Source: an uncultured Verrucomicrobiota bacterium
GTDB lineage: Bacteria; Verrucomicrobiota; Verrucomicrobiia; Limisphaerales; UBA9464
Direction of reading: 5' to 3'
DNA: 53,091 nucleotides
Assembly (NCBI GenBank): GCA_903907995.1
Contig: CAIVQH010000032.1
Location: 1-53,091 of the forward strand
A program made the translations under genes and the position numbers. Positions within the stretch are counted from its first letter, which is position 1; each line of letters opens with the position of its first letter. The notes beneath the pieces were generated by a model that searched no databases, had not been told where the DNA came from, and was given only the letters and a program-made list of their open reading frames with translations. Positions 36,083 to 51,508 of this stretch are shown piece after piece.

Positions 36083-36415
36083 GGTCCTGAGGCGCCTGCC
36101 TGCGTAGCAGCCGACGTGAGGAGGCTCCATTTGCCATTCTCAGTCAGAGCCCCCTCACGTCGGCTGCTACGGAATGGGAAAGATTTCCACAGAGCCTGGC
36201 TTCAGGCACTTCCATGCGGCTGTTACCCCACGTCTTGAGTCCGTTTATCTCACCCTAGAAGGGCCGTTCAGGATCCGGACTTTTCCGGTCACCGGACACA
36301 TCGGCGTCGCGAGCTTCGTGTTCGTGAGGACCGGCCATAAGGATGGCCCAAACCTCTGTCTGTGGCAGACCTGTCTGCGACTTCGATTTTCCATGGCTCC
36401 AAACCAAGGAGGACA
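36083..36415. other. Gap with a long inverted repeat and the SPFH gene leader
   Basis: The left part contains the 25-base inverted repeat listed separately. The right part holds the promoter region and a strong Shine-Dalgarno sequence (AAGGAGGA, about 36406-36413) placed just before ATG 36416, which fixes the SPFH start. Confidence 0.6.
36103..36171. repeat. 25-base inverted repeat, terminator- or MITE-like
   Basis: The left arm is 36103-36127, beginning CGTAGCAGCCGACGTGAGG, and the right arm is 36147-36171. The arms match at 24 of 25 positions when one is reverse-complemented, around a 19-base spacer. It lies 20 bases after the TerB gene. No T-run follows, so a dispersed palindromic repeat is more likely than a plain terminator. 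I recall similar sequences as numerous in verrucomicrobial genomes; not verified here. Confidence 0.75.
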
Positions 36416-37420
36416 ATGAAAAACCAAGCATATCTGACCGCCATCGTCGTCACCACCGCCTTCGTCACCGGCTGCAAGCCGGTTAAGGTTCTCGATATCA
36501 AGGAGGTGAAACCCAATGAGACCGCCTGGGCGATCCCGCTTGACGGTTCGGCACAGGACGGCCAAGTGAAGTTCAACTCCGTCGGCTTTCTGGACCAGAA
36601 GAAGGTCGCGATGAAGCGCATCATGATCGACAAGGTCGAGCGCTCCGTCGGGCGTTTCTGGTTCGACATCGAGTGGATACCCGCGGTGCGCGTCATCACC
36701 GTGGACCGTTCCCTAGTCACCCGGGAATGGACCGACAACGACAAGACTGGCAGCAGTGCCAAACGTGACGGAATCCCGGTCAACACCCGGGACAACATCG
36801 CGCTCACCATCGGCCTGACCGTCACCGCCAGCATCGAGGAGGATGAGGCATCAACCTACCTTTACTATCACGGCGAGAAGCCGCTCTCGGAGGTCACCGA
36901 CGTGAACATCCGGTCCTTTGCCGTGGCGGAACTGAACCGGCAGGTGTCCGCCATGACCCTGACCGAGTTCCAGCAGCGGCAGACGGAGATCTACACGAAG
37001 CTGTTCGCGGACACGGCCTCCTATTACAAGACCAAGGGGGTGACCATCCAGTATCTCGGCAACGCCGAGGGCTGGCACTTCGCCCACAAGGAGATTCAGG
37101 ACAGCATCAACCGGAGCTTCACGGCCCAGCAGGACAACCGCACCGCCGAGATGGAGCAGCAGGCCCAGAAGACCCGGAACCAGACCATGGTCCTGAACCA
37201 GGAGACGGCCAACCAGGTCAAGATCCTTGCGGCGCAGGCCGAGGCGGATTCGGCGAGGAAGCTCATGGAAGTGAAGGAGGCCGCGGAGTTCCAGAACCGC
37301 CTTCAGGTGGCGCTCCTGGCCGCGCAGGCGCAGATGAAGATGGCGACCACGTGGGATGGAAAGATGCCGTCGAACATCCTGCCGTCGAATTCACCGCTGC
37401 TGTTGCAGCTGGGCAGATGA
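36416..37420 (+). CDS. SPFH/Band 7-domain lipoprotein
   Basis: A 334-residue protein. The N-terminus (Y-L-T-A-I-V-V-T-T-A-F-V-T-G-C) is a lipoprotein signal with lipobox Cys20, which is unusual because most SPFH proteins use a transmembrane hairpin. The SPFH region (about 40-220) contains N-T-R-D-N-I-A-L-T-I-G-L-T-V-T-A-S-I and F-A-V-A-E-L-N-R-Q-V-S-A-M-T-L-T-E-F. A Gln/Glu/Ala-rich coiled coil (about 235-310) follows. Members organise membrane microdomains and scaffold proteases or other partners. A strong AAGGAGGA ribosome-binding site fixes the start. Confidence 0.85.
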   Translation: MKNQAYLTAIVVTTAFVTGCKPVKVLDIKEVKPNETAWAIPLDGSAQDGQVKFNSVGFLDQKKVAMKRIMIDKVERSVGRFWFDIEWIPAVRVITVDRSLVTREWTDNDKTGSSAKRDGIPVNTRDNIALTIGLTVTASIEEDEASTYLYYHGEKPLSEVTDVNIRSFAVAELNRQVSAMTLTEFQQRQTEIYTKLFADTASYYKTKGVTIQYLGNAEGWHFAHKEIQDSINRSFTAQQDNRTAEMEQQAQKTRNQTMVLNQETANQVKILAAQAEADSARKLMEVKEAAEFQNRLQVALLAAQAQMKMATTWDGKMPSNILPSNSPLLLQLGR

Positions 37421-37458
37421 TTCGCAGAAGCGAACGGTAGCCGTAATGGTGCGTCAAT

Positions 37459-37509
37459 GAGAGGGCCCGCTTTGATGGTCAATGCCACGAATCCAAGGCG
37501 GGCTCTCTC
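37459..37509. terminator. Convergent terminator-like hairpin after the SPFH gene
   Basis: The arm GAGAGGGCCCGC (37459-37470) pairs with GCGGGCTCTCTC (37498-37509) with one G-U pair, and the stem extends about four more pairs inside. It lies 38 bases after the SPFH stop. The T-run is weak, so termination efficiency is uncertain. Confidence 0.55.
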
Positions 37510-37601
37510 TTCATCCCACCTCTCATCCCGGCCCTCTCCCCGTTGAGGGAAGAGATCCTAGCCCGCATGTGAGGCCGCCCGTCGCCGACGGTCCTCGGTG
37601 A

Positions 37602-37736
37602 GTAGCGCAGATTTGCAATCTGCTGTATCGCGGGTTTGTAACCCGCACCGGCCACAGGATTTCCCGGACGCGTCCAAGCATCCGACGCGTTGCCGATTGA
37701 AAATCGGCGATACAGCAGGTTGCAAACCTGCGCTAC
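37602..37736. repeat. 135-base inverted repeat with four 17-nt hairpins
   Basis: The outer arms 37602-37630 and 37708-37736 match at 27 of 29 positions. Inside are four hairpins of identical form, a seven-base stem with three-base loop: 37607-37623 (GCAGATT/AATCTGC), 37630-37646 (GCGGGTT/AACCCGC), 37692-37708 (GCCGATT/AATCGGC) and 37715-37731 (GCAGGTT/AACCTGC). Stem sequences differ, but every change is paired by its complement. All stems are of the form GCnnnTT/AAnnnGC. Confidence 0.85.
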
Positions 37737-37816
37737 CTCCATGGCGCGCCGCTCTCCTGCAATCAGCCCCGGGCAACCAAGGTGCCAAGATGCGCCTATG
37801 GCGCTGCCACCAATCT

Positions 37817-39760
37817 CTACGGCGCCTTGATCGCGCCGACATAGCGACCGAGCCAGTAGCCGAGCAGGTACTCGTCGCCGGGAAAGTCCGTCGTGTCATC
37901 GCCCTGATCCAGGATGAAGGGCTGGGTGTTGATGCGCGCGATGAGGCGTTCGCCGGGCGGGAGCAGTTCCTTCAGTTCTCGAGCCATGAAATTGGGCGGC
38001 AGCTTCGTGAGATCCTGCCGGTGTGAATTCACGACCTTCCAGGCGATGGTGTCGAGGGGTGTCCCGCGCAGCGTCCACACCGAGCCGGCGGCATCCACGT
38101 CCTTCACGCCGCAGGCGGCGGCGATGAAGTTCCAGATCGGGTAGCGTTCGGGATTCTCGATTTCCAGATGCTCCCGCACGACGCCCAGATATTTGGCGCG
38201 CAACTCCGGGGTGAAAGCGAAGCGCACGAGCGGCCAGTAGGTGAAGAAGGACAGCTCGTCATCGCTGTGGTTCCACTCGTCGCCCATGTTGTTGCCGAGG
38301 TGGATGTAGCCATCTGTCTTGGCGATGAGTTTCAGCGAACTTAGGATGTTGGTGAGGTAGCCGTGCTTCGCGAACATCTCGTAGGCCTTGTCGCGGTAGC
38401 GCGGGTTGCCGGTCATGGCGAACGCGAGCTGCAGGGTGGCAGTGAGCTCGGCGCTGTTGAGCTGGCGGTCGTGGATGGTGGGCGGGAACCAGTTCACGTA
38501 CTCGGGATTCCAGCGGCCCCAGAGCGTGGGTTTGCCGTCCACGTCGATGAGGTAGAGGTCGTGCGTGAGGATGTGCTCGACGATGGGGATAAAATTCGTG
38601 GCGATGCGCGCGCGTTCGGCGGCGTTGGTGGCGACGAGTTCCCACATCACCGCGTGGGCGAAGGTCTGCGAGCAGATCTCGTCGCTGCTGGTGTGGCCCT
38701 TCCATTCCCAGGCGGGATCGGGCGCGTCGCGCCAGCGGTCGGTATCGGAGAACTTGAAGCCGCGTCGCTCGAAGGTGCGCGCGGGAAAGCCGGTGTTCGT
38801 GTGGATGCTCTGGAGCCGCTCCAGCGCCGCAAACGATTCCCAGGCCTGCCGGCGGATTTCCTCCTCGTGGGTGACTGCGTAACGTGCGCCCAGCGAGCCG
38901 ATGTAGTAGCTCGTCCAGCCGCCGTCGTTGTCGGTGTCGATCATTTCGCTGGAGGTGATATCACCGGGGACGAGCAGGCGGCGCTCGGCGGTGAAGCCGT
39001 AGCGCATGTTCCGCGAGCGGATCTTGCGGTGGAACCAGTCGGCCTTGGCGGCCATCGTGGTCTGGCGGAACTCGATCTTGTTGAGGCCGGTCTTGGTCAG
39101 CACCCAAAGGTGGCCATCGTGATCCACGGCGAGATCGACGACGTCATCATCACGCAGCCAGCGTTTGCCGGCGTAGTAGCGGAAGTGCGGAGGGTTGATG
39201 CCGGGGGCGGAAGGGGTGGCATAGCGCGCAATGGAGCCCTGACGCTCGAAAAAGGCCCCCCGGGTGGTGCCGAACCAGACGCCGCCGGGAACGTTCACAT
39301 GGGTGTTCAGATCCGACCACGGCACGCCGGGCGCAGGCGCGGGCAGGGGTGGCCGGGCCAGTTGGCGGATGACTTCCTCCCGCAGCGGCCGGCCATTGTC
39401 TCCATTCGACAGCCAGCCCTCCTCAAACTGATAGGCCAAGTCGCCCTGCGGCGTGAGGGCGATGTCGCGGGCGATTTTGCCGGTGAATGGCCGGTAGCTT
39501 TTGTCGAGGGCGAGCGTGTCGTCATAGACACGGGCGACGCCCTTGTCGGTGAGCACGTACACGGTGTCTTCCTTGTCCACGACGAGCTTCTTGTAGACGG
39601 CATTCGTGAGCTCGGGGGAGTGGTGGATGCGGACGGCGACATCCTGCCAGAAGGGGGCGTCGGGGATGGGGGCGGCGGTTGCGCGCGGAGCAGGGGGCAG
39701 GAGCAGGAGTAAGAGCAGGAGCAAGAAAGAGAATGGCTGCTGGGGCGGCGCGAACTTCAT
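37817..39760 (-). CDS. Exported propeller / helical-domain protein
   Basis: A 647-residue protein from ATG 39760, where a classic signal peptide begins (F-A-P-P-Q-Q-P-F-S-F followed by a long Leu run and P-P-A-P-R-A-T-A-A). The first 240 or so residues have propeller-type strands (V-Y-V-L-T-D-K-G-V-A-R-V, H-D-G-H-L-W-V-L-T-K-T-G-L-N-K-I), like the sensor propellers of two-component regulators. The rest is helical and aromatic-rich (W-G-R-W-N-P-E-Y-V-N-W-F, D-G-Y-I-H-L-G-N-N-M-G-D-E-W-N-H) and resembles alpha/alpha-barrel proteins. The catalytic role is unknown. A terminator-like hairpin ends four bases before this ATG. Confidence 0.75.
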   Translation of the reverse strand: MKFAPPQQPFSFLLLLLLLLLPPAPRATAAPIPDAPFWQDVAVRIHHSPELTNAVYKKLVVDKEDTVYVLTDKGVARVYDDTLALDKSYRPFTGKIARDIALTPQGDLAYQFEEGWLSNGDNGRPLREEVIRQLARPPLPAPAPGVPWSDLNTHVNVPGGVWFGTTRGAFFERQGSIARYATPSAPGINPPHFRYYAGKRWLRDDDVVDLAVDHDGHLWVLTKTGLNKIEFRQTTMAAKADWFHRKIRSRNMRYGFTAERRLLVPGDITSSEMIDTDNDGGWTSYYIGSLGARYAVTHEEEIRRQAWESFAALERLQSIHTNTGFPARTFERRGFKFSDTDRWRDAPDPAWEWKGHTSSDEICSQTFAHAVMWELVATNAAERARIATNFIPIVEHILTHDLYLIDVDGKPTLWGRWNPEYVNWFPPTIHDRQLNSAELTATLQLAFAMTGNPRYRDKAYEMFAKHGYLTNILSSLKLIAKTDGYIHLGNNMGDEWNHSDDELSFFTYWPLVRFAFTPELRAKYLGVVREHLEIENPERYPIWNFIAAACGVKDVDAAGSVWTLRGTPLDTIAWKVVNSHRQDLTKLPPNFMARELKELLPPGERLIARINTQPFILDQGDDTTDFPGDEYLLGYWLGRYVGAIKAP

Positions 39761-39764
39761 CCGC

Positions 39765-39818
39765 AAAAACAAACACGCGCCGGAGACGGAGGAAAGCTCC
39801 GTCGTGCTCCGGCGCGTG
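39765..39818 (-). terminator. Strong terminator-like hairpin abutting the start codon
   Basis: On the reverse strand an 11-base stem (CACGCGCCGGA with TCCGGCGCGTG) encloses a seven-base stem GACGGAG/CTCCGTC with loop CTTTC and a four-base bulge. It is followed directly by TTTGTTTTTG (39773-39764). The tract ends four bases before ATG 39760. It is an intrinsic-terminator structure for transcripts arriving from the giant gene. Confidence 0.75.
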
Positions 39819-40173: not shown

Positions 40174-43100
40174 TTAAGGAATCACCAACCGGTAGTAACG
40201 TTCACTGTGGCCCGTGAGGTTGTCGCTGGCGGTGGCGGCGGTGCTGGTGGCGACAAACTCGTTGAGCGTCTGCCACGGGGTGCTGAGTGAGTCGCTCACT
40301 TCGACTCGATAGCGCAGCCCGATCTGGGCGGGCCAGGTCAGTGTGACATTGCTGTCGTTGACCGTTGCGCCCAGGGCCGGTGTGGTCGGGGCGATCACGT
40401 TGATGCTCACGGTGGCGTCATCGCTGAGCGGCGGGACCCCGTTGTCGGTGGCACGCACCACGACGCTGTTCGCGCCCACCTGAGCAGCCGTGGGGGTCCA
40501 GCTGAATTGGGCCGGTGAGCCCGTCAGCGTGGCGCCGACGGGGGACGCTCCCGGGAACGAGTATGTGAGCGTCTGGCCCGCGTCGGGATCGGTGGCCGTG
40601 ACGAGGAACGACAGCGCCTGGCCGACATAGGCCGTCTGGCTGCCGATGGCGGCGAGGACCGGGGCGCGATTGGCGATGGCCGAGGGATTGGCCGCCGCCG
40701 GGGTGGGTAGGCTGAAAATCTTCAGGCCGCCGGGGAAGTTATCCGGATCCCGCCCGAAGGACTGGTTGGCCGTGGGCACGCTGTAGTCGAGGTAATCCAC
40801 GACCGCCGGCAGTCCGAGCTGCGGCCGGCTCAGGGCCAGCACGCCGTTGGTGGGATCGAGGCGGAAGTTGGTATGGAGTTCGGTGGGGGTGGCGTCGGCC
40901 GGCTGGCCGTCCGCAAACACGAGCAGGAACTGGCCGGGGGCGATGACCGTACCGGCGGGGAAAACCCACTGGCCGAGGTTGGTGTAACTGTTGGCGAGCG
41001 ACCAGCCATCGAGGCTGACGGGCAGGCTGCCCCGGTTCACCAGTTCGAGCCACGGCTCGGGCAGGTCCCGGCTGTCCAGCAGGCCGGTGGTGTTGTTCGG
41101 CAGCACCTCATTGATCCACAGCGGCGGGAATTCCGGCAGGTCGGCGACGACGCTGTTGGTCGTGCCCGGGGTGAAGCCGGTGACGCTCGTGCTGCCGTTG
41201 GCAATGTTCACGGTGCTCCGGATGCCGCTGCCCGAGAGCCGGACGGTGAGATTGCCACCGGCTGTGTTCGGCAGGTACCAGTAGCTCACCGTGTACGGCG
41301 CGCCCTGCGTGAGCGGTGTGGCCAGGTCCTGATAGACGGCGGAGGCCCGGGTCGTCCCGCCGGCGGTCGCGACCAGGTGCAGGCTGGCGTTGCCGCCATG
41401 CTTCACTGTGGTGCTGCGGGCGGATTGCGCCATGTTGCCGTCCGTGCCGATGGCGAACGGTCCGGGGAAGTCGGACTCGAAGTCGCCGTTGGCGAGCAGG
41501 TTGGCGCCCACCTCGGCCACGTTGCCGGCGACGAGCACCACGTCGTCCACGTACACGTCCGTCGCGGTTTCGAGGTAGAGGTAGAGCGTGGAGCTGCTCG
41601 CGGTGCCGGACTGCACGACGTGCTGCCATTGCGGTCCCGAATTGGCGCCCCAGTTGCCCACGCGCGAGCTGTCGCGGCGGGCGTCCACCAGCTGCAGCGC
41701 AGAGCCGCCGTCGGCATTGGTCGGCCACGGCAGGCTGGCGCGGAAATCCACCAGCGTGAGCGTGCGGCCGGTACGGTCAAAGATGCCGAGCTGGGTGCCG
41801 AAGCGGTCGAGCTGGCCGGACCACGGGCCCAGCACGGGGATCGTGCTGCCATACGCGCTGGCAAAGGCGGCGAGGTTCTGCGCCACCACCAGGAACTTGC
41901 CGGGTGCGAGCTTCGTGCCCGCCGGGAAATCGAACCGCAGGTTCTCGCCGGCGAGCTGCAGCCCGCCGAGGTCCTGGGTGGTGATGGTGGAAGGATTGAA
42001 CAGTTCCACGTAGGCGGCATTGGTCGCCGTCGAGTGGTACATGATCTCGTTGATCACCGCGCGGAACTTCGGAACGGTGATCACCGTGAAGGACTTCGTG
42101 TCGGAAAGGTTGCCGGGACCGTTGTCGGTGACCGTGAGGGTGATGGAATTGGTGGTCGGGCCGGTGTCATCCGGGGTGGCCCACACGAAGATTCCCGAGT
42201 TGGGATCCACCGACGCGCCCGCTGGCGCACCCACCCCCAGGGTGTAGGTCAGCGTCTGCGGCGGCAGGTCGGCATCGGTTGCGGTGGCCTGGAAGGTCAC
42301 GACCGAGCCCTCTTCCACAGTGAAGTCCTTCAGCGTGCCCAATACCGGGGCCTGGTCCACCTCGTTGACGGTGAGCCCGAAGCTCTGGACGGCGCTGAGC
42401 CCGCCAGACAATTCGGTGGCGCGGACGATGATGCTGTAGGTGGCAGGTCCCTGTGCCTCGCTCGGTGTCCACTGGATGATGCCCGAGCCGGGCTCGATGG
42501 AGATGCCCGACGGCAGGTTGCCCTCGAGCGAGTAGGTGACCGCGACGGGCGGTGAGTCCGGGTCGGCCGCATGCACGGTCAGAGTGAAGGGCTGCCCCTC
42601 GTTCACGCTTTGCGGCTGGATGGGGTCGAAGACGGGCGGGTTGTTCACCTCGTTGACGGTGAGGGTGAACGTTTTGGCGTCCCCCAGCGAGCCGTCGCTG
42701 ACCCGCACGGTCAGCGGATACACGCCCGGCCCCTGGCTTTCGGTGGGCGTCCAGGTGAAGACGCCGGTGTTGGCGTCGATCGCCGTACCCGTCGGGGCAC
42801 CGGCATCAAGGGAATACGTGAGCTTGTTCGCGGGCACATCGGGATCGGTCGCGGTGGCGGTGAACGAGAAGAGCGAGCCCTCGTTGATGGTGCGGTCGGC
42901 GATCGGGGCGAGCGCCGGCGGGCGGTTGACCTCGTTTACCGTCACGGTCACGTGCTGCACGGCGCTGCGGGGCGGCGTGCCATTGTCGAGTGCCCGCAGG
43001 GAGAAGGTATACGTGCCCGGTCCCTGTTCCTCGCTCGGTGTCCAGGCAAAGACGCCGGTGGCCGGATCAATGGTGGTTCCGGCGGGGGCATCGAGGCCGA

Positions 43101-46100
43101 GGCTGTAGGTCACGGTCTGTCCCGCGTCGGGGTCGGTGGCCACGGCGGTGAAGGTCAGCGTGGTCTGCTCCGCCACCGTCTGCGGCGGGATCGCGGCCAG
43201 CACCGGCGGCAGGTTGGCGCCGGCGACGACGTTCGCCTGGCCGGGGGTCGGCGAGGGAAAGAAGACCAGCGGCAGATCCCCGCCATCGGGGTAACGGCCC
43301 TGGCTGATGTCGTTGGTCTGCGTGCCGAATCTGAAGCCATCCACCAGGTTCCCATCCGGGCCGAAGAGGCCCAGCGCCTGGCCGGCCTTGGCCAGCTTGA
43401 AGTTGACGTGCAGATCGGCGTTCGTGGGGCTGTTCGCCTTGGCATTGTTGTCGGCCCACACAAGCAGGAAGCCGCCCGCCGGGATCACGTAGCCGGGGGG
43501 CACGGTGAACTCGGTCGAATTCGTGAGGCTCTCCGTGAGCCGGTAGCTGGTTAGGTCCACGGCGGAGTCGCCGGCATTGAAGAGTTCAAACCAGTCATCG
43601 GCCTTGCCGCCGACAGGATTGAAGATCGTGGACGTGTTGTCCGCCATGAACTCGTTGATGGTGACCTTGATCGCGGGGAAGGTCGGGTCGTTGGTCGTCC
43701 CGGCCGTCACATTGTAGAACGAGCGGCGGTTCCGCGGTTCGCCGTCCGGGTACGAGCCGAAGCTGCGGCCGGCCGGGAGCTGCTTGTAATCCAGATAGTC
43801 CATCACCGTGGACGTGCTGGTCACGCGCACCAGAGCCACTCCGCTGTTGGTCGGATTCAGGCGGAAGCTGGTATGCAGGATCGTGTCCGTGGACTGCGCC
43901 GGCTGGCCGTCGGCCCAGACGACGAGGAACTGGCCCGGGGCGATCGTGAAGCCGGCCGGAAAGCGCCACTTCGCGAGGTTGGTGTAGTTGTCGGTGAGCG
44001 CGTAGGCGCCGAGGGTGATGCTGTTCGTGCCACCATTATAAAGTTCGATGAAGGGGTCGTGCTCGCCGGCATTGTCCACCGGGCCGGTGACGTTGTCGGG
44101 CAGCACTTCGTTGAGCCACAGGTTGGGGAAGGGCGGCGTGCTGGCCTTGACCGAGTTGGCGCGGCCGGGCGTGACCCGGTTCACCGAGTTGGTCGGGGCC
44201 GTGGCCCAGTTGCCCACCCGGTAGCTGCCCCGGCTCGGGTCGATGAGCTGCAGGGACGGCCCGAAGCCGTCCGCATTGGTGGACCAGGGCAGGCGGTTGT
44301 CGTAATGCACATCACTGATCACGAGGTCGTTGGTGCCGCCGACACCGAGCGGCTTGACGAGCCGGAGCGTTTCGCCGCCGTTGTTGAGCGAGCCGGAGAA
44401 CTCGGCAAACACCTGGATGGAGGATCCGTAGGCGGCTTCAAAGGCGGTGCGGTCCTTCACGAGCACGAGGTAACCGCCCGGCGGCAGCAGCGATCCGTCG
44501 GGGAAGGTGTAACCCACGCCCTCCAGCCGGTCGCCGGAGAGGTCAAACAGGGTGGTGGTGGAGTTGTTGAACAGCTCCACGAACGACGCCCCGGTTTCGG
44601 CCGGGCTGTAGTGGATCTCGTTGATCACCACGTAATCCTGGGGCTGCTGGATGGCCCCGGCGTAGCTGACCGTGATCGTGTCGGTGGCCCCCGGGACAGG
44701 GTTGCCATTCCGGTCCAAGCCGGCCAGCGTGAACGCGTTGGAAGCGGCGGCCAGCGGCACGGCGACGGAGAAGGAGTTCTGGTCGGTCCAGGTGGCCGGA
44801 TAGACGGTGCCGTTTACCGTGATGTCCGCCACGGCGAAGGGCGCGGTGCCGGTGAGCGTGGCCGTGGCCGTGCTGGAGGTGAAGCTGTTGCCGTTGTTGC
44901 TCGTGATGGCGAACTGGGCCACGTCGTTGGCGGCGATCTGGGTTTGGATGAAGGCGCGGCGCTGCACGATGTAGTTGGCCACGCCACTGGGTGAGCCCAG
45001 GCCGCCAAGCCCGTTTTTCACGAGGGTGGCGCGGCGGGAATCGATGACCGGCCCATATTGGGCGGGGTCCATGGGCCCGTTGACCGCGTCCTGGTAGGCG
45101 CGCCAGAGCATCCGGCGGAAGGCCGGCGTTTCATACATGCGGTTGACGACCGGATCCTGCCCGTCCCAGAGCCCGTCGGTCGCCCCGTTGCCATCGCCAA
45201 AGGTGAAGTCGATGTCCCAGGGCATGAGTTTCCAGGTCTCCCCGGGCAGCTTGTAGGCGTACATGTTCTGGCCGACGCTGAAGCTGTAGGAGTCCCAGTT
45301 TCCCAGCACGCGGTGGAAGGCGAAGATGCGCATCCATCCGTCGAGGTCGGCGATGCTGAGCAACCCAGGAACATAGGTGCCGGTCGGGGTGTTGTTCGCG
45401 GAGGGATCGTTGGCCGCGGTGACGAGGTTGAAGACGTTGGTGTAGTTGTTCTCCGTGCCGCCGTAGCCGCGCGTCTGCCAGTTGAAGCGGTAGCGGGCGA
45501 GCTTGTAGGCGCCGCCCGTGGTCGTGAACGGCTCCAGGGTCGCGCTCACGCCGTTGAAGCTCGTGTTGTCGTCCTGGAACTCGAACCAGATGGCGATCTT
45601 GTAGAGGTCACCCTCGTTGGGGGAGGGAAAGTGCGCCCGGGCGTAGTCGCCGGTCGGCGTCTCCTCATCCTGCGAGAGGTTGTAGAGCTGGCCGCCGTTC
45701 CGCCACAGCTGCATATAGTGAGAGTGCAGGTAGGGGATGCCCATCTGCTTGCCGAGCCAGGTGGCCAGCTGGTTCCGCAGGCCGGTGCTTTCCGCGCCGC
45801 CGTTGCCCGTCGAGCGGAAGACGCGGTCGGTCGCGCCCAGCAGCGGATCATCGTCGGCATTGATGACCGCGAAGCTGCCGGCACCGCCGTGGTACGGGCT
45901 GCCCTTGTCGCGGAAGCCCACATTGTAGATCACACGGAAGCCGCCATACACGAGGGTCGCGTCGCGGTAGGTGTTGTTCAGCGGATTGGTGCGCTGGTTT
46001 TCGGACGCCTGCGAACTCCACATGTGATAGTGGCCGAAGTTGCCGAAGGGGATGGGATCATCCCAGCGGATGTAACCCTCGGCCGAGGGCAGCGCGACGG

Positions 46101-49100
46101 GCTCCAGATTCGAACTGGGGAAAGTGCCGGTCGCGGCGTTGGTCGCGGCATCCACGGCCACGATCTTGAACCCGATGAGGGTGCCGGAACTGCGCCCCGT
46201 GATCGTGGCGGAATAGATGCCGTCACCGGCCACCGCGTCGCCGCCGGTGCCGTCATCGCGCATGACGATGTTGCTGGCCGTGGTGGTGGGGTCCACCCGG
46301 GTTCGCAGGGTGACAGAAGCGAGACCGTCCGCGTCGGAAACGCGGCAGGTGACCACCACCGCCTCGCTGGCGCGGGGCAGGGCGGGCGTGTGGGTCACGT
46401 CGTAGATGGCCGGCCCGGCGTTGGGCACAAGCCGGCTGTTGGGCAGGCCGGGTGTGCCAAGGTTCTTCGGCACCACCAGGCGGCAGGGCAGTTCGAGCCA
46501 GCCGCCACCCAGGCGGAACAGGATCTCCGGAGAGCCGGCGACCCAGCGGGCCTTCGCGCGGATGGTTGCGGTGTCGCCTGGGTTCAGCGAGGTGGTCAGC
46601 GCGGTGCGGATCGAGTTGATGCCGGTGTCGCTGTCATCCTGGGCGCGGATGTGCAGGGCGCGGGTGCCGGCAAAGGCCCCCGTGCTTTCCACGGTGGTGA
46701 AGCTGTGGTTGCCGAAGAAACTCCAGCCCGCAGCCCCGGATTCGAAGCCGTTGTTGCTGACCAGATTTGCGCCGCCGGTCTTGAAGACCTCGACTTCGTC
46801 CACCATCGCCTGGCCGCCTCCCTCGCTCCCGATGTGCAGGCGGTTGGGCGGGAAGCCGTCCTGGCCGTTGTCGAGCACGCCGGTGACGGCGTAGGTGTTC
46901 CACTGGCCCTTCTGGGATTCGTCGGAGTCCGCCCAATTGGCGGGTTGCAGCAGATCGGCGTGGGGATCGGTCAGCTCCAGGCTGGAGCCCCCGCCGCCGG
47001 AATATTTGCCCCAGCGGCCGCCGGTTCCATAGGTCACCTCGGATACCACGACATGGATCGAGTTGGTCGCCAGTTCGCCGAATGCGTTGGTGCTCACCAG
47101 GTCGTCCGGCTTGGTGAGCGCGAGATGGGCGCCGGAATTCTTCAGCGAGCCGGAAAAGTCACCCACGGTATTGGTCGAATTGAGCTGTGAATAGTTGGTG
47201 AGCAGCTGGTCGCGGCTCTTGCCGACCACAAGGTAGCCGCCGGGGGCCAGGCTCACGCCCTTGGCGAACTTGTAGCTCACGGCATCTTCCAGCCGCCAGC
47301 CGGTCAGATCCACCGTGTTGGTTCCCCGGTTGTAGAGCTCGACGTACTCGTCGTTGCTGTCACCGCTGATCGGGGCGTACATCAGCTCGTTGATGACGAT
47401 GTCCGTCACTTGCCAGGGGGCATTGGCCGTGCCGGGGGTCGGCTGGGTCAGCCGGCGGATGGTGGCGGCACCGTCGGGGAAACGGCCCGAGGCCACGCCG
47501 TTTTCCTGGTCGTGATAGCGCACGGCGTCGAGGACGCGGGTCGCGTTGGAATTCACCAGGTAGATCGCCTCGCCCGCCGCGCTCAGGCGGAAACCGAGCT
47601 GGTTCTGGTCGAACATCAGGAAGCCCTGTTTCGGGATGATCGTTCCGCCCGGGATGCGGAAGCGGTTCGTGACCGGCGAGTCGCTCAGATAGCAGCCGCT
47701 GAGATCCACGTCGGCGAGGGTGTGGTTGTAGAGCTCGATGTAATCGACCTGCGGGTCGTCGGTGTGGGCGAGAAACTCGTTGATGACCACCCCGCTCTGC
47801 GGGTTTGCCAGGAGGGTTTCCTGCCGCCCCGGCGTGCCGCCGATGGCCTCGCTGATGCCCCAGGCCCGGGGGTCGGCCTCACCGTAGCTGGGCCGCCGGA
47901 GCACCAGCGAATGGCCGGTCCCATCCGCCGCCACGGGCCATGGCGCTTCCGTGCCGTAGGTCATGTCCAGCTTGATCGCGCCGGTCTGGTCGGCCAGGCG
48001 TACCGTGTCGCCGGAATTGCTCAGGGACCCGAAGATGGGCCCGAGAATGGTGCCCGCTCCACCCGCTGCCCGGAGCGCGTCGGGATCGGCCGCGACCGTG
48101 AGGAATCCGCCGGCCGGGACGACCGTGCCGGGCGGGAACTCGAAGGCGATTCCGCCCGTGAGCTGCCAGCCGGAAATGTCCTCGAAGATCGTGTCGGCGT
48201 TGTACAGCTCCACGAACTCGAGGTTGCCGGTCACGCCCGCCGGCGGGTTCGGGTGGTACATGATTTCCGAAAAGACCAGGCCGGTGCGCCGGCTGCTCGG
48301 CGCGAGCGGTTCACGGTCGGGCGTGTAGGTGCCCACCACGGCGCTCTGGATCGGGCCGTAATCACGGAACTGTGCGGTCGAGACCTGCTGGGCGTTGCCG
48401 CTGGAGAGCGCGAGACCCACGTAGATCTGCGCCGGCAGGGTGACGGTTGCGGTGCCGAGCTGCACCCACTTCTGGCCGTCGAGGCTGCCGAAGCCGGTGA
48501 ACACATTGCCCACGCGCCGCAGGCGCAGCCACGTCTGCGGGTAGTTCACCGGGAAGCCGCCGTTCAAGGTGGCGGTGGTCGCGCCTCCCCCCACCGTGGT
48601 GCGGGACTCGAAGAAGCTGCCCACCTCGACCGACGCCCCGAAGATCGCGGCGAAGGCGGCATTCGCATTGAGGCTCCCGCGCGCCATCAGGCCAGCGTGC
48701 AGGAACGGGTCGGTCACCGTGGCGTCGGCCACGCGGACCTGCAGGTCAAAATTGCCGCTGCGCAGCTCCCAGGCGAACTGGAACTGGTCGCTGTTGCCAT
48801 TGATGTCAGCGCCGCCGCCGGTCACGTCATAGGCCCCGGCACTCACCCGTTGGATCGAGCCGCCGCCGGTGCCGATGTCCTGCGAGACAAATTCCAGCGC
48901 CAGCAGGGAAATCGTGCTGCCGGGCAGGATGGTGTTGGGCGTTTGGGCGCGGTCCTGCACCCCGTTCACGGTCAGGGTGTAGGTGGTGCCATAGGCCAGG
49001 GGCGACGTGGTCAGCACCACGGTGCTCGCGTCTGTACCATACGCGACTGAGGAAACCGTCACCCCGCCGCTGATTTTGTAATTGGCGGTGGCCAATCCGC

Positions 49101-50043
49101 TCGCGCCGCTCACCGGCTCGCTGAAAGTCAGCTGGATATTGGTCGCCCCGAGATTGATGACACCGGTCAGCGTGGGCTTGGTCGTGTCCGGCAGCACGGT
49201 GAGCGTGGCCGTGGTGGAGTTGGTGCCGCCCAGCTTGTTCGTCAGCGAGGCCATGAACACCGAATTGTTGTCGTCCAAGGTGACCGGGCCGTAAGTGAGG
49301 ATGGAGCCCGTCTGTCCGGATACGACCGTGCCGTTGCGCCGCCAGATGTACGTCACGATGTCGAGATTCTTCGCCTTGATGCTGAACGTCGCGGTCTGCC
49401 CCTCGATGACGGTCGTGTTGGTCGGCTGCTGCGTGATGACCGGTGGGCCGAACGAGGTGCCGAAAGGCAGCAGGTAGGTCGCCGGAATCGGTCCCTCGTC
49501 CACGCCGTCAGGACGCAGCCAGCGCACCGCGAGGTTGTCGCCGCCGCCGCCCTCCTTTTGCAACGCGCTGATGTAGTAGTTCTGCCCGGCGATGAGCTTG
49601 ATCGGGGCCGACTGCTGCTCGGGGAACTTGGTCCACTCCCGTTGACCGGCCCAATCAGGTACCGAGGCGATCTGCTGGACGTTTGCCGGATCGGTGTCGG
49701 TGCTCAGGAACAGCGCGCCGTTGTCGTCCGTGGCGATCCAGAAGGTGTAATTGCCCGTGACCGGCGGCGTGATGTAACCATGCATCCGCTGGCCGTAATT
49801 GTCATCGAAGTTGGAGGGCGACTCGAAGAGGTCGGTGACGAAGTTCGTGAGCGTCGGGTGGTCGGGGTAGATCGGGTTGTTCGTCAGGTCGCTGATCGCG
49901 TTGCCTGAGATTCCCTGGTAAACCTCCCGCAGGATCGAGCCACCCCGGGCGGGCAGCCACGCTGCCATAAGCAACAGCAGTGCAAGGCTTAGCCGCTGGG
50001 CCGGGAAACGGCCAAACGGCCGGCAGTAATGGGGAAAACGCAT
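40174..50043 (-). CDS. Giant exported CotH / lamin-tail / Ig-repeat protein
   Basis: A 3,289-residue protein from ATG 50043, where a signal peptide begins (L-S-L-A-L-L-L-L-M-A-A-W-L-P-A-R-G-G). Domain order by approximate residue: PA14-like 40-180; Ig-like 185-270; SbsA-like Ig 280-370; a concanavalin-like lectin part 380-560; lamin-tail domains near 586, 754 and 881; a CotH-like kinase 1335-1700 with M-P-W-D-I-D-F-T-F-G; lamin-tail domains near 1806, 1977 and 2128; four tandem cadherin/He_PIG-like repeats 2276-2650; lamin-tail near 2661 and 2974; another He_PIG near 3126; and a C-terminal beta domain from about 3220. It probably acts at the cell surface in adhesion or carbohydrate binding. 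The CotH part may phosphorylate a protein. It is intact in one frame. Confidence 0.9.
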   Translation of the reverse strand: MRFPHYCRPFGRFPAQRLSLALLLLMAAWLPARGGSILREVYQGISGNAISDLTNNPIYPDHPTLTNFVTDLFESPSNFDDNYGQRMHGYITPPVTGNYTFWIATDDNGALFLSTDTDPANVQQIASVPDWAGQREWTKFPEQQSAPIKLIAGQNYYISALQKEGGGGDNLAVRWLRPDGVDEGPIPATYLLPFGTSFGPPVITQQPTNTTVIEGQTATFSIKAKNLDIVTYIWRRNGTVVSGQTGSILTYGPVTLDDNNSVFMASLTNKLGGTNSTTATLTVLPDTTKPTLTGVINLGATNIQLTFSEPVSGASGLATANYKISGGVTVSSVAYGTDASTVVLTTSPLAYGTTYTLTVNGVQDRAQTPNTILPGSTISLLALEFVSQDIGTGGGSIQRVSAGAYDVTGGGADINGNSDQFQFAWELRSGNFDLQVRVADATVTDPFLHAGLMARGSLNANAAFAAIFGASVEVGSFFESRTTVGGGATTATLNGGFPVNYPQTWLRLRRVGNVFTGFGSLDGQKWVQLGTATVTLPAQIYVGLALSSGNAQQVSTAQFRDYGPIQSAVVGTYTPDREPLAPSSRRTGLVFSEIMYHPNPPAGVTGNLEFVELYNADTIFEDISGWQLTGGIAFEFPPGTVVPAGGFLTVAADPDALRAAGGAGTILGPIFGSLSNSGDTVRLADQTGAIKLDMTYGTEAPWPVAADGTGHSLVLRRPSYGEADPRAWGISEAIGGTPGRQETLLANPQSGVVINEFLAHTDDPQVDYIELYNHTLADVDLSGCYLSDSPVTNRFRIPGGTIIPKQGFLMFDQNQLGFRLSAAGEAIYLVNSNATRVLDAVRYHDQENGVASGRFPDGAATIRRLTQPTPGTANAPWQVTDIVINELMYAPISGDSNDEYVELYNRGTNTVDLTGWRLEDAVSYKFAKGVSLAPGGYLVVGKSRDQLLTNYSQLNSTNTVGDFSGSLKNSGAHLALTKPDDLVSTNAFGELATNSIHVVVSEVTYGTGGRWGKYSGGGGSSLELTDPHADLLQPANWADSDESQKGQWNTYAVTGVLDNGQDGFPPNRLHIGSEGGGQAMVDEVEVFKTGGANLVSNNGFESGAAGWSFFGNHSFTTVESTGAFAGTRALHIRAQDDSDTGINSIRTALTTSLNPGDTATIRAKARWVAGSPEILFRLGGGWLELPCRLVVPKNLGTPGLPNSRLVPNAGPAIYDVTHTPALPRASEAVVVTCRVSDADGLASVTLRTRVDPTTTASNIVMRDDGTGGDAVAGDGIYSATITGRSSGTLIGFKIVAVDAATNAATGTFPSSNLEPVALPSAEGYIRWDDPIPFGNFGHYHMWSSQASENQRTNPLNNTYRDATLVYGGFRVIYNVGFRDKGSPYHGGAGSFAVINADDDPLLGATDRVFRSTGNGGAESTGLRNQLATWLGKQMGIPYLHSHYMQLWRNGGQLYNLSQDEETPTGDYARAHFPSPNEGDLYKIAIWFEFQDDNTSFNGVSATLEPFTTTGGAYKLARYRFNWQTRGYGGTENNYTNVFNLVTAANDPSANNTPTGTYVPGLLSIADLDGWMRIFAFHRVLGNWDSYSFSVGQNMYAYKLPGETWKLMPWDIDFTFGDGNGATDGLWDGQDPVVNRMYETPAFRRMLWRAYQDAVNGPMDPAQYGPVIDSRRATLVKNGLGGLGSPSGVANYIVQRRAFIQTQIAANDVAQFAITSNNGNSFTSSTATATLTGTAPFAVADITVNGTVYPATWTDQNSFSVAVPLAAASNAFTLAGLDRNGNPVPGATDTITVSYAGAIQQPQDYVVINEIHYSPAETGASFVELFNNSTTTLFDLSGDRLEGVGYTFPDGSLLPPGGYLVLVKDRTAFEAAYGSSIQVFAEFSGSLNNGGETLRLVKPLGVGGTNDLVISDVHYDNRLPWSTNADGFGPSLQLIDPSRGSYRVGNWATAPTNSVNRVTPGRANSVKASTPPFPNLWLNEVLPDNVTGPVDNAGEHDPFIELYNGGTNSITLGAYALTDNYTNLAKWRFPAGFTIAPGQFLVVWADGQPAQSTDTILHTSFRLNPTNSGVALVRVTSTSTVMDYLDYKQLPAGRSFGSYPDGEPRNRRSFYNVTAGTTNDPTFPAIKVTINEFMADNTSTIFNPVGGKADDWFELFNAGDSAVDLTSYRLTESLTNSTEFTVPPGYVIPAGGFLLVWADNNAKANSPTNADLHVNFKLAKAGQALGLFGPDGNLVDGFRFGTQTNDISQGRYPDGGDLPLVFFPSPTPGQANVVAGANLPPVLAAIPPQTVAEQTTLTFTAVATDPDAGQTVTYSLGLDAPAGTTIDPATGVFAWTPSEEQGPGTYTFSLRALDNGTPPRSAVQHVTVTVNEVNRPPALAPIADRTINEGSLFSFTATATDPDVPANKLTYSLDAGAPTGTAIDANTGVFTWTPTESQGPGVYPLTVRVSDGSLGDAKTFTLTVNEVNNPPVFDPIQPQSVNEGQPFTLTVHAADPDSPPVAVTYSLEGNLPSGISIEPGSGIIQWTPSEAQGPATYSIIVRATELSGGLSAVQSFGLTVNEVDQAPVLGTLKDFTVEEGSVVTFQATATDADLPPQTLTYTLGVGAPAGASVDPNSGIFVWATPDDTGPTTNSITLTVTDNGPGNLSDTKSFTVITVPKFRAVINEIMYHSTATNAAYVELFNPSTITTQDLGGLQLAGENLRFDFPAGTKLAPGKFLVVAQNLAAFASAYGSTIPVLGPWSGQLDRFGTQLGIFDRTGRTLTLVDFRASLPWPTNADGGSALQLVDARRDSSRVGNWGANSGPQWQHVVQSGTASSSTLYLYLETATDVYVDDVVLVAGNVAEVGANLLANGDFESDFPGPFAIGTDGNMAQSARSTTVKHGGNASLHLVATAGGTTRASAVYQDLATPLTQGAPYTVSYWYLPNTAGGNLTVRLSGSGIRSTVNIANGSTSVTGFTPGTTNSVVADLPEFPPLWINEVLPNNTTGLLDSRDLPEPWLELVNRGSLPVSLDGWSLANSYTNLGQWVFPAGTVIAPGQFLLVFADGQPADATPTELHTNFRLDPTNGVLALSRPQLGLPAVVDYLDYSVPTANQSFGRDPDNFPGGLKIFSLPTPAAANPSAIANRAPVLAAIGSQTAYVGQALSFLVTATDPDAGQTLTYSFPGASPVGATLTGSPAQFSWTPTAAQVGANSVVVRATDNGVPPLSDDATVSINVIAPTTPALGATVNDSNVTLTWPAQIGLRYRVEVSDSLSTPWQTLNEFVATSTAATASDNLTGHSERYYRLVIP

Positions 50044-50317
50044 AGATGAAAGTGCGATAAAGGGGACGTTCAAGCAACAATCGGGTGACAGCCAGTTTGT
50101 GCGGTCACGGGCCACGATGGCCGGAGACAGTTCTTCTGCCGGGAAAGGGTGCTCATGTTTGATAAAGGCGTCAGCGCAGCAGCTTCCAAGCCGCCGCTGG
50201 TACCGGTTTTGGGGATTCGGAGGGTACGGACAACTCAGCAGCGTCATTTTACCGAGCTGAAATTGCGGTCGGATCCGGGACGATGGAATGGAGTGCAAGT
50301 CATTCCCAGTTTGCCGG

Positions 50318-51508
50318 TTACCGCTTCGCGAGCGCATTGGCCGCCACCTGCTGAAACTCCCGGCGGACCTGGCTGGCGTCGCTGTTCGGGAAATTCGCGC
50401 GTTGCACCATCAGCACGTACGCGACGCCCTTCACGGGATCGACCCACGCCTGCGTGCCCCACGCGCCACCATGGCCGAAAGTGCCCGGCGAGAGCATCGC
50501 CGCCACCCCCTCGTGCGGCCGGCGCAGCACACAGGTGCCGATGCCCCAGCCGTAATCCTTGCCGTGCTGCCCAAAGGTGTCGTTTTGGAAGAACCCCACT
50601 GGCAGGTCACCGGTCTGCGGCGTGGAAAGCAGCTTCAGCGCGACGGCACTGAGGTAACGATGGCCGTCCAGCTGCCCGCCATTCAGCAACATCTGGCAGA
50701 AGCGCGCATAATCCTGCGCGGTCGAGTAGAGCCCGCCATTGCCCTGCGGCGGCTTGTCGCGGGGGCCGAACTCGGGACGCGGCGGCACGGCGTCCAGCTT
50801 GCCGGTGTCCTTGTTCTTGGCATAGGCGGTGACGAGCCCGGCGCGTTGGGCGTCATCCAGATAGAAGGTTGTGTGCTTCATGCCCAGCGGCCCGAACAGG
50901 CGCTTCTGGAGGAACACGTCGAAGGTCATCCCGCTCACCACCTCGACGATGCGGGCGCCCGCATTGATGCCGCTCTGCGTGTAGCGCCACTGGCTGCCCG
51001 GCTCATATTGCATCGGCGTCGCGAGCCAGATCGGCACGAGATCGGCCAGTGTCTTGGCCGCCTGCGCGGCCGGACCGCTCGCCTCGCCCAGTCCGGAGGT
51101 GTGCGTGAGAATCTGCGTGATCGTGAGGTTCGCGGGCTTGCCGGACGGCGTCTTCAGGTTGGCGAACTCCGGCAGATATTTCGCGACTGGATCGTTGACG
51201 TTCAGCCGGCCCTCATCCTGAAGCATGAGGATCGCCGTCCCGGTGACTGGCTTGGTCATCGAGGCGATCCAAAAGAGCGTGTCCGGCGTCATCGGCCGCT
51301 TCGTCGCGACATCCGCCAGCCCGGTGCATTCGAGATGCACGGTGCGATCCTTCGTGACCACGACCGTGACGGCCCCGGAAATCTCATTCTGCTCCACCAT
51401 CGCCTGCATCGCCGCCCCGACGCCGGGCAGCTTCGGTGCCTCGGCCAAAGCCGACAGCGCGACCGACAAGGCAAGGCCGACCAAAAAACCAACACGACGG
51501 GGATGCAT
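50318..51508 (-). CDS. Serine hydrolase, class C beta-lactamase family
   Basis: A 396-residue exported protein from ATG 51508, with a signal peptide (V-G-F-L-V-G-L-A-L-S-V-A-L-S-A-L-A). The SxxK motif is S-M-T-K (Ser83-Lys86). The tyrosine motif is Y-T-Q (Tyr176), with Gln in place of the usual Asn. A G-H-G-G motif near residue 353 takes the place of KTG. The family includes AmpC, EstB-type esterases and D-aminopeptidases; this one is more likely an esterase or peptidase than a true beta-lactamase. It is co-oriented with the giant gene, 274 bases upstream of it. Confidence 0.88.
   Translation of the reverse strand: MHPRRVGFLVGLALSVALSALAEAPKLPGVGAAMQAMVEQNEISGAVTVVVTKDRTVHLECTGLADVATKRPMTPDTLFWIASMTKPVTGTAILMLQDEGRLNVNDPVAKYLPEFANLKTPSGKPANLTITQILTHTSGLGEASGPAAQAAKTLADLVPIWLATPMQYEPGSQWRYTQSGINAGARIVEVVSGMTFDVFLQKRLFGPLGMKHTTFYLDDAQRAGLVTAYAKNKDTGKLDAVPPRPEFGPRDKPPQGNGGLYSTAQDYARFCQMLLNGGQLDGHRYLSAVALKLLSTPQTGDLPVGFFQNDTFGQHGKDYGWGIGTCVLRRPHEGVAAMLSPGTFGHGGAWGTQAWVDPVKGVAYVLMVQRANFPNSDASQVRREFQQVAANALAKR

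Follow-up and report, generated by a model that had tools for sequence, protein, structure and literature searches.

The element at positions 37602-37736 of the window, the whole 53,091-nt stretch of DNA that we analysed, is probably one member of a non-autonomous, REPIN/BIME-type family of mobile repeats that a RAYT (REP-associated tyrosine transposase) would move as a single strand. This reading draws on the anatomy of the element, the covariation of its stems, its dispersal, its presence or absence in sister genomes, the RAYT genes bordered by its units in relatives and the lack of a target duplication.

The element is 135 bases long and has the layout GTAGC-H1-T-GTATC-H2-core-H3-GATAC-A-H4-GCTAC, in which each of the four hairpins has a 7-bp stem and a 3-nt loop (7/3/7). 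On the forward strand, the left outer unit consists of the tag GTAG plus C (37602-37606) and hairpin H1, GCAGATT-TGC-AATCTGC (37607-37623). One spacer base at 37624 precedes the left inner tag GTATC (37625-37629) and H2, GCGGGTT-TGT-AACCCGC, an inner hairpin of the purine type (37630-37646). A 45-nt core whose sequence varies among copies (37647-37691) leads to the units on the reverse strand. These comprise H3, GCCGATT-GAA-AATCGGC, an inner hairpin of the C type (37692-37708), with the inner tag GATAC, an inverted GTATC (37709-37713), followed after a spacer base at 37714 by H4, GCAGGTT-GCA-AACCTGC (37715-37731), with the outer tag GCTAC, an inverted GTAGC (37732-37736). All four hairpins that the sequence-only reading had described as GCnnnTT-NNN-AAnnnGC are present, and the pattern fits each. 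They are enclosed by an inverted repeat, 37602-37650 against 37688-37736, that is 82% complementary. The same reading had placed two symmetric mismatches between the arms, which is correct for the outer pair H1/H4 but not for the whole 49-nt arms, which differ at nine positions. Six of the differences form three symmetric stem pairs (one in H1/H4, two in H2/H3); of the remaining three, two fall in loops and one falls outside the hairpins.

The folding energy of the element is far below that of shuffled sequence, both as DNA (z = -9.50) and as RNA (z = -9.95), with 0 of 200 shuffles as good in either case. Its folding energy and its 17 places in its own genome put the four-hairpin feature beyond chance. 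Two genes converge on it from outside: one for an SPFH/Band 7 protein of 352 aa (36362-37420, forward strand), at a distance of 182 nt, and one for a protein of 651 aa whose sole match, to Reg_prop (beta-propeller repeat), is weak (37817-39772, reverse strand), at a distance of 81 nt. ORFs of 87, 113 and 142 aa overlie the element itself. Such short ORFs across repeats of this sort are probably spurious and call for caution among annotators. Elsewhere in the window, a CCTCTCCC-type stretch at 37514-37554 has 90-92% matches at other places in its own genome and in the sister genome G003 and is probably a remnant of another repeat, and a very long ORF of 3387 aa lies downstream at 40174-50337 (reverse strand).

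The element is dispersed. In its own genome (G000) it occupies 17 distinct places including the window copy, some of them partial (30 matches when both strands are counted). A scan of own-genome stretches together with the window gave 13 elements, 12 of 133-135 nt and one caught in part; by a greedy ORF call, four of these 13 copies are crossed by an ORF of 120 aa or more and the other nine by none. Matches were found in 17 of the 39 genomes searched, its own genome counted in, and some relatives hold dozens of copies. We also searched a species collection with a pattern for the outer units that left four stem letters and the loop free and imposed no pairing on the unconstrained stem letters. 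At least 115 stretches matched, and 80 of them were taken as loci; the record titles of these 80 are Verrucomicrobial in 78 cases, among them one Limisphaerales and two Pedosphaera, and read only 'bacterium' in two. From all the loci retrieved in the analysis we collected 129 distinct four-hairpin elements made of inverted units with a spacer, and 103 of the 129 are 132-135 nt long. The template for this collection covered the outer units (GTnG required) and located H2 and H3 by distance only, and the set includes near-relatives, so its copies are not independent.

Several arrangements of repeats were seen alongside. The element is amplified in tandem at four loci, three in the relative G002 (L026 in contig C155, L027 in C67 and L034 in C176) and one in G031 (L072 in C12), with a spacing of about 238 bp in G002 and 156 bp in G031; at L026, a similar flank is repeated between the copies. 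Several G002 copies stand at contig ends. Other dispersed repeats of roughly 150-230 bp, with about 20 or more matches in G003, lie at L047:5599-5831, L052:768-938 and L052:11650-11850.

Two kinds of unit alternate in a fixed order, the outer ones tagged GTAG and the inner ones GTAT. Of 258 outer ends, for which the collection demanded GTnG, 242 read GTAG; the inner tag, on which the collection set no requirement, is GTAT in 205 of 258 and GTAG in 3 of 258. Exactly one inner hairpin is of the C type (GCC) in 119 of 129 copies, and the element therefore has a direction. H2 and H3 share an identical stem in 0 of 129 copies, compared with 10.9 after shuffling. We set aside selection against a perfect palindrome as the cause, since shared ancestry explains the one C-type hairpin per copy; correlations between hairpins in the 129 elements ignore the relatedness of the copies.

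The stems covary strongly among genomic copies, a test that the sequence-only reading had called for. In the 80 loci taken from the at least 115 matching stretches, the outer hairpins gave 112 pattern matches, 111 of them distinct, and 101 of these 111 pair at both free positions; 10,000 shuffles gave a mean of 28.7 and a maximum of 47. All 25 of the exact outer units in its own genome are paired. H1, H2, H3 and H4 are perfect in 109, 103, 97 and 104 of the 129 elements, against shuffled means of 26, 13, 10 and 25. In the 477 hairpins that are in register, stem pairs 3-7 comprise 2385 cells: 2310 Watson-Crick, 17 G-T and 58 mismatched. This count leaves out 39 of 516 hairpins whose tag or outer stem letters did not fit and, with them, some broken stems. 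Stems broken without compensation, which had been named as the observation that would speak against structure, exist but are rare. Position 6 carries all four Watson-Crick pairs (263, 82, 77 and 48), position 3 carries three types and position 5 almost only A-T and G-C. The inner-hairpin pairs 1, 2, 4 and 7 are nearly fixed (in H2, 121, 121, 122 and 107 of 129).

An alignment of 31 copies gave the same result. RNAalifold, unprompted, returned all four hairpins and a GTAGC/GCTAC foot. The 31 copies were hand-picked and mainly well formed, most of them from G003 (16) and G000 (9), and the paired percentages are for this reason above those of the 477-hairpin count. In this set, 98.6% of the cells in the named hairpins are paired compared with 88.5% after shuffling (99.5%, 95.9%, 99.1% and 100% for helices 1 to 4), and the covariation score is 0.288 compared with 0.091 shuffled and at most 0.050 when the hairpins are slid. 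Two-sided cells number 89 (26.2 shuffled), one-sided cells 2 and unpaired cells 12, all counting sequences rather than events. Ten pairs show a two-sided change compared with 7.1 after shuffling, a value reached in 2 of 500 shuffles; further pair types among the 31 copies were not raised above shuffles (19 vs 20.3). Pairing between the long arms was at the shuffled level in the same copies (83.9% vs 84.7%), with no excess of covariation, and we rejected the long-arm palindrome as a kept structure. Because the small hairpins are paired while the pairing of the long arms is at the shuffled level, each small hairpin is a kept unit. The small hairpins are conserved; the long palindrome is not.

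The small number of G-T or G-U pairs, 17 cells against 58 mismatches, leans towards single-stranded DNA or templated copying rather than RNA. This bears on whether the hairpins act in RNA, as a bidirectional terminator, as mRNA-stabilising hairpins or as a small RNA between convergent genes. The position between two convergent genes and the strong RNA folding would suit such a role, and REPs are reported to act in RNA in the sections of PMC3733652 drawn on here. However, a simple scan of 37380-37860 gave no terminator-like site, which led us to reject a terminator, and 0 Rfam matches in the window exceeded the gathering score. A described Rfam family was likewise rejected, as nothing reached the cut-off and the two weak matches lie beside the element. 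We consider an RNA-level element unlikely as the main explanation, and the repeat may have a side role in RNA after insertion.

Comparison with the sister genome G003 bears on mobility. We compared two G000 stretches, of 12.2 and 11.0 kb, that hold four copies in all. Three of the four are absent from G003 despite homologous neighbouring genes, and one is present. The absences could reflect insertion in G000 or loss in G003; the non-coding junction DNA of the two genomes is too diverged for a base-exact insertion point. At the window locus, the gene on one side is 93-94% identical in G003 and the other side is not collinear, so that this locus is uninformative as an empty-site test. No target duplication was found in 127 copies, in which direct flank matches of 1-9 nt were at the shuffled level. 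HUH enzymes are not expected to produce a target duplication. We claim no target motif at the insertion point, the highest information in 254 flanks being 0.30 bits, partly from tandem copies.

These data also weigh on an ordinary terminal-inverted-repeat MITE moved by a DDE transposase. Such a MITE would account for a long inverted repeat that is dispersed and keeps to 132-135 nt in most distinct copies. It is at odds with the absent target site duplication, with arm-to-arm pairing that is not kept and with units that border RAYT genes, and we regard it as very unlikely.

When the flanks of the 13 G000 elements in the stretches retrieved were matched with those of 18 G003 elements from such stretches, three shared sites emerged. 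The copies of pair A (L046, L039) have 15 differences or gaps in 135 positions, and their H3 hairpins differ in two base pairs, each swapped completely, while the loop is the same in both. Those of pair B (L050, L066) have 7 differences in 134, two of which make up one complete swap in H1. Pair C (L047, L067) shows an in-place inversion of the core, with 122/133 positions identical when inverted compared with 97/138 when direct; the flanks are about 94-95% identical, the right-hand outer hairpin seems not to be inverted, and in the G000 copy both H2 and H4 carry breaks that lack compensation. An inverted core at one of three shared sites is what an invertible DNA switch, whose arms serve site-specific inversion of the core, would leave. 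Yet this is a single case, inversion between inverted repeats can occur passively, and 37380-37860, scanned for the window copy only, holds no sigma-70-like promoter. A switch of this kind seems to us very unlikely.

The pair swaps at shared sites bear on a more serious rival, in which mutation itself keeps the structure, through template switching within hairpins or gene conversion between copies, and no function is needed. Template switching is described as a source of compensatory changes in the portion of PMC8794818 used here. The ratio of two-sided to one-sided and unpaired cells in the 31 chosen copies and the complete swaps in H1 of pair B and in H3 of pair A, with its unchanged loop, fit such an origin. 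So does the G000 variant GCAGCTT-GAA-AAGCTGC, which occurs at no other place in its own genome, the sole other GCAGCTT stem having a different loop. On the other hand, template switching leaves unexplained why inner pairs 1, 2, 4 and 7 and the GTAT tags stay largely fixed beside a variable core. The long arms could template each other and yet are not homogenised, and H2 and H4 of the G000 copy at site C are broken without compensation. As the whole explanation, a purely mutational origin is a substantial possibility that we nevertheless place behind movement by a RAYT, and it is compatible with that main reading as its mutational supply. Selection on structure and templated correction of hairpins both fit the covariation.

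The sequence-only reading had proposed a search for a RAYT-like transposase. Units of the element do border a RAYT clade in four relatives, but no member of that clade was found in its own assembly. In G002, a RAYT of 265 aa (P0001) lies between copies of the element. P0001 scores above the cut-off for Pfam Y1_Tnp (25.1, cut-off 23) and 1.3 bits under that for NCBIfam REP_Tyr_transpos (78.7, cut-off 80), and it matches the TnpA-REP structure 4er8 in the PDB at E 2.6e-6. Its alignment contains the HUH motif NHVH, FWQ and a later tyrosine in GYTVRNP (Y-x3-NP motif). Its nearest homologues among 78 genomes are in G011, G062 and G072, with 56.6-61.7% local identity. In all four genomes, units stand at or overlap both ends of the RAYT open frame: G002 and G072 have four-unit elements beside the gene, G062 has only some of the units, and G011 has only single ones; in G011 the 39-genome search gave one weak match to the window element.

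Across the RAYT loci, tblastn identified 37 distinct homologues, with the unit present at four. For the remaining 33, the sequence within 600 nt gave related hairpins at L258 and a single match at L111 that looks unrelated; a few of the more distant homologues are bordered by different repeats of their own. The four unit-bordered RAYTs group together in a clade of their own (support 98/94). If L258 is included, the RAYT tree requires two changes of the unit label, and 4 of 500 shuffles required as few. We found no RAYT of the P0001 clade in G000, whose assembly is 95.7% complete and whose best match has 40% identity and other flanking repeats, nor in G003 or G004, though both carry the repeat. 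G000 encodes five Y1_Tnp genes of its own. We rejected these as the cognate enzyme after finding no convincing unit in loci of 3.2-3.3 kb or 18-19.5 kb; the best of the weak matches agrees at 14 of the 15 fixed letters, has one mismatch in its stem and lies about 9 kb from the gene. Taken with the covariation and the three sites that lack the element in the sister genome, the units that border RAYTs support the earlier suggestion of selection for structure in a mobile element.

A separate group of RAYTs sits inside or beside host domains. An in-frame RAYT without stops lies within an SNF2 helicase of 1408 aa in contig C19 of G000 (L062:8119-12345, reverse strand), and another lies within an SNF2 helicase in G014 (L111, contig C46). 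A RAYT shares one open frame with UDPGP in G020 (L261, contig C53) and with HHH_6/OB domains in G025 (L103, contig C74). The G003 helicase, 95-99% identical, is without residues ~708-986 of the G000 protein, and this gap is also seen in G002, G020 and G017, among others. The four RAYTs in host domains form one clade with those of L258 and L269 (98/99), and their in-frame placement seems to spare the host gene in the manner of an intein. Inverted GTAGGACGGGCGTCCCGCCCGT units flank the in-frame RAYT of L062, at 9377 (+) and 11415 (-), and are a second REP-like family in the G000 genome.

The element consists of four REP units of 22 nt each, arranged as two tandem units in each of two inverted arms. 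A unit comprises a tag (GTAG in the outer units, GTAT in the inner ones), a C and a 7/3/7 hairpin. We propose that in single-stranded DNA, for example on the lagging strand during replication, each unit would fold, and the RAYT (TnpA-REP, an HUH Y1 nuclease) would recognise the tag together with the folded hairpin. It would cut near the outer units and join the element elsewhere without a target duplication; the inner GTAT units may be bound but not cut like the outer ones. If the RAYT reads the pairing of the stem and a few fixed pairs rather than every stem letter, then position 6, position 5 (A-T or G-C) and position 3 of the inner hairpins can vary when both sides change. The two-sided changes may arise in a single event in which one arm of a hairpin serves as template for the other. 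Such changes would then be filtered by the requirement that the hairpin stay usable for the RAYT. A T-A to G-C swap bypasses the G-T intermediate. Such a filter would fit the finding, in the part of PMC8266576 drawn on here, that a related RAYT is hurt more by a stem mismatch than by swapped stem letters.

A more speculative extension, which we think improbable, is a single-strand synapse of four sites. The GTAG units would be the cut ends, the GTAT units would hold a second transposase dimer, with their changed fourth letter guiding another cut or none, and the element would move and also flip in place. Its hairpins would be rewritten as whole pairs, from arm to arm, while single-stranded. 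If true, a compensated change would be a footprint of folded DNA in the cell.

The element adds a four-hairpin REPIN type and a linked RAYT clade to a little-studied phylum. Dozens of copies in some relatives and sites common to sister genomes make it possible to test which features of its hairpin a RAYT reads and whether compensatory changes in hairpin DNA accrue step by step or through a single templated event.

TnpA-REP subclass 2.4 and its 'double foot' REPs reportedly come from a paper with Quentin as first author. As excerpted from PMC6006769, this subclass has the motifs NH[IFV]H and WQ, also present in the four RAYTs here, frame-keeping REP insertions inside genes, as seen here, and double-foot REPs whose two ends carry GTAG and CTAC, as in our element. 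The same excerpt gives the motif YIxNNP, whereas the four RAYTs have YIRANP, YIRMNP or YTVRNP and so are not placed in subclass 2.4; a double-foot REP is one long hairpin, whereas the element here has four. The Stenotrophomonas TnpA-REP (group 3), in the sections of PMC8266576 compared, uses a REP with a perfect 8-bp stem and a 3-nt loop; a short perfect stem and a loop of 3 nt are also features of the element. A stem mismatch there affects or almost abolishes cutting, while complement-swapped letters are milder. That REP is a single unit with another stem sequence and is known from biochemistry, whereas the element here is known from sequence.

The GTAG repeats and head-to-head dimers of Di Nocera et al. 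2013 (PMC3733652) share the GTAG tag with the element and, as that text describes them, have mostly 6-9 bp stems, many 2-3 nt loops and complementary stem variants, as here. They are said there to occur in the PVC superphylum and to be abundant in O. terrae (Verrucomicrobia). Double palindromic repeats are mentioned in the sections drawn on here only as terminal repeats around some transposase genes and as related repeats of P. putida and P. fluorescens. Our comparison with these families is by their text description, as their consensus sequences are in figures. Judging from the portions of PMC3116915 and PMC3733652 used, REPINs, the compensatory changes in them and GTAG repeats of Verrucomicrobia have been published before; among the open-access papers listed by our searches, figure-only consensus sequences aside, we recognised none on this four-hairpin repeat.

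The element has the GTAG-type outer tag, the kept, foldable short hairpin and the inverted units with a spacer of a REPIN/BIME, but it has two tandem REP units per arm in place of one, and we therefore file it as a variant rather than a plain member. REPINs of Pseudomonas fluorescens SBW25 are said to have been described by Bertels and Rainey. In the passages of PMC3116915 compared, these likewise consist of inverted REP units with a spacer, are dispersed and are tied to specific RAYTs. They carry one REP per arm, whereas each arm here carries two tandem units, tagged GTAG and GTAT, and it is the short hairpins of the element that are kept, rather than the pairing between its arms.
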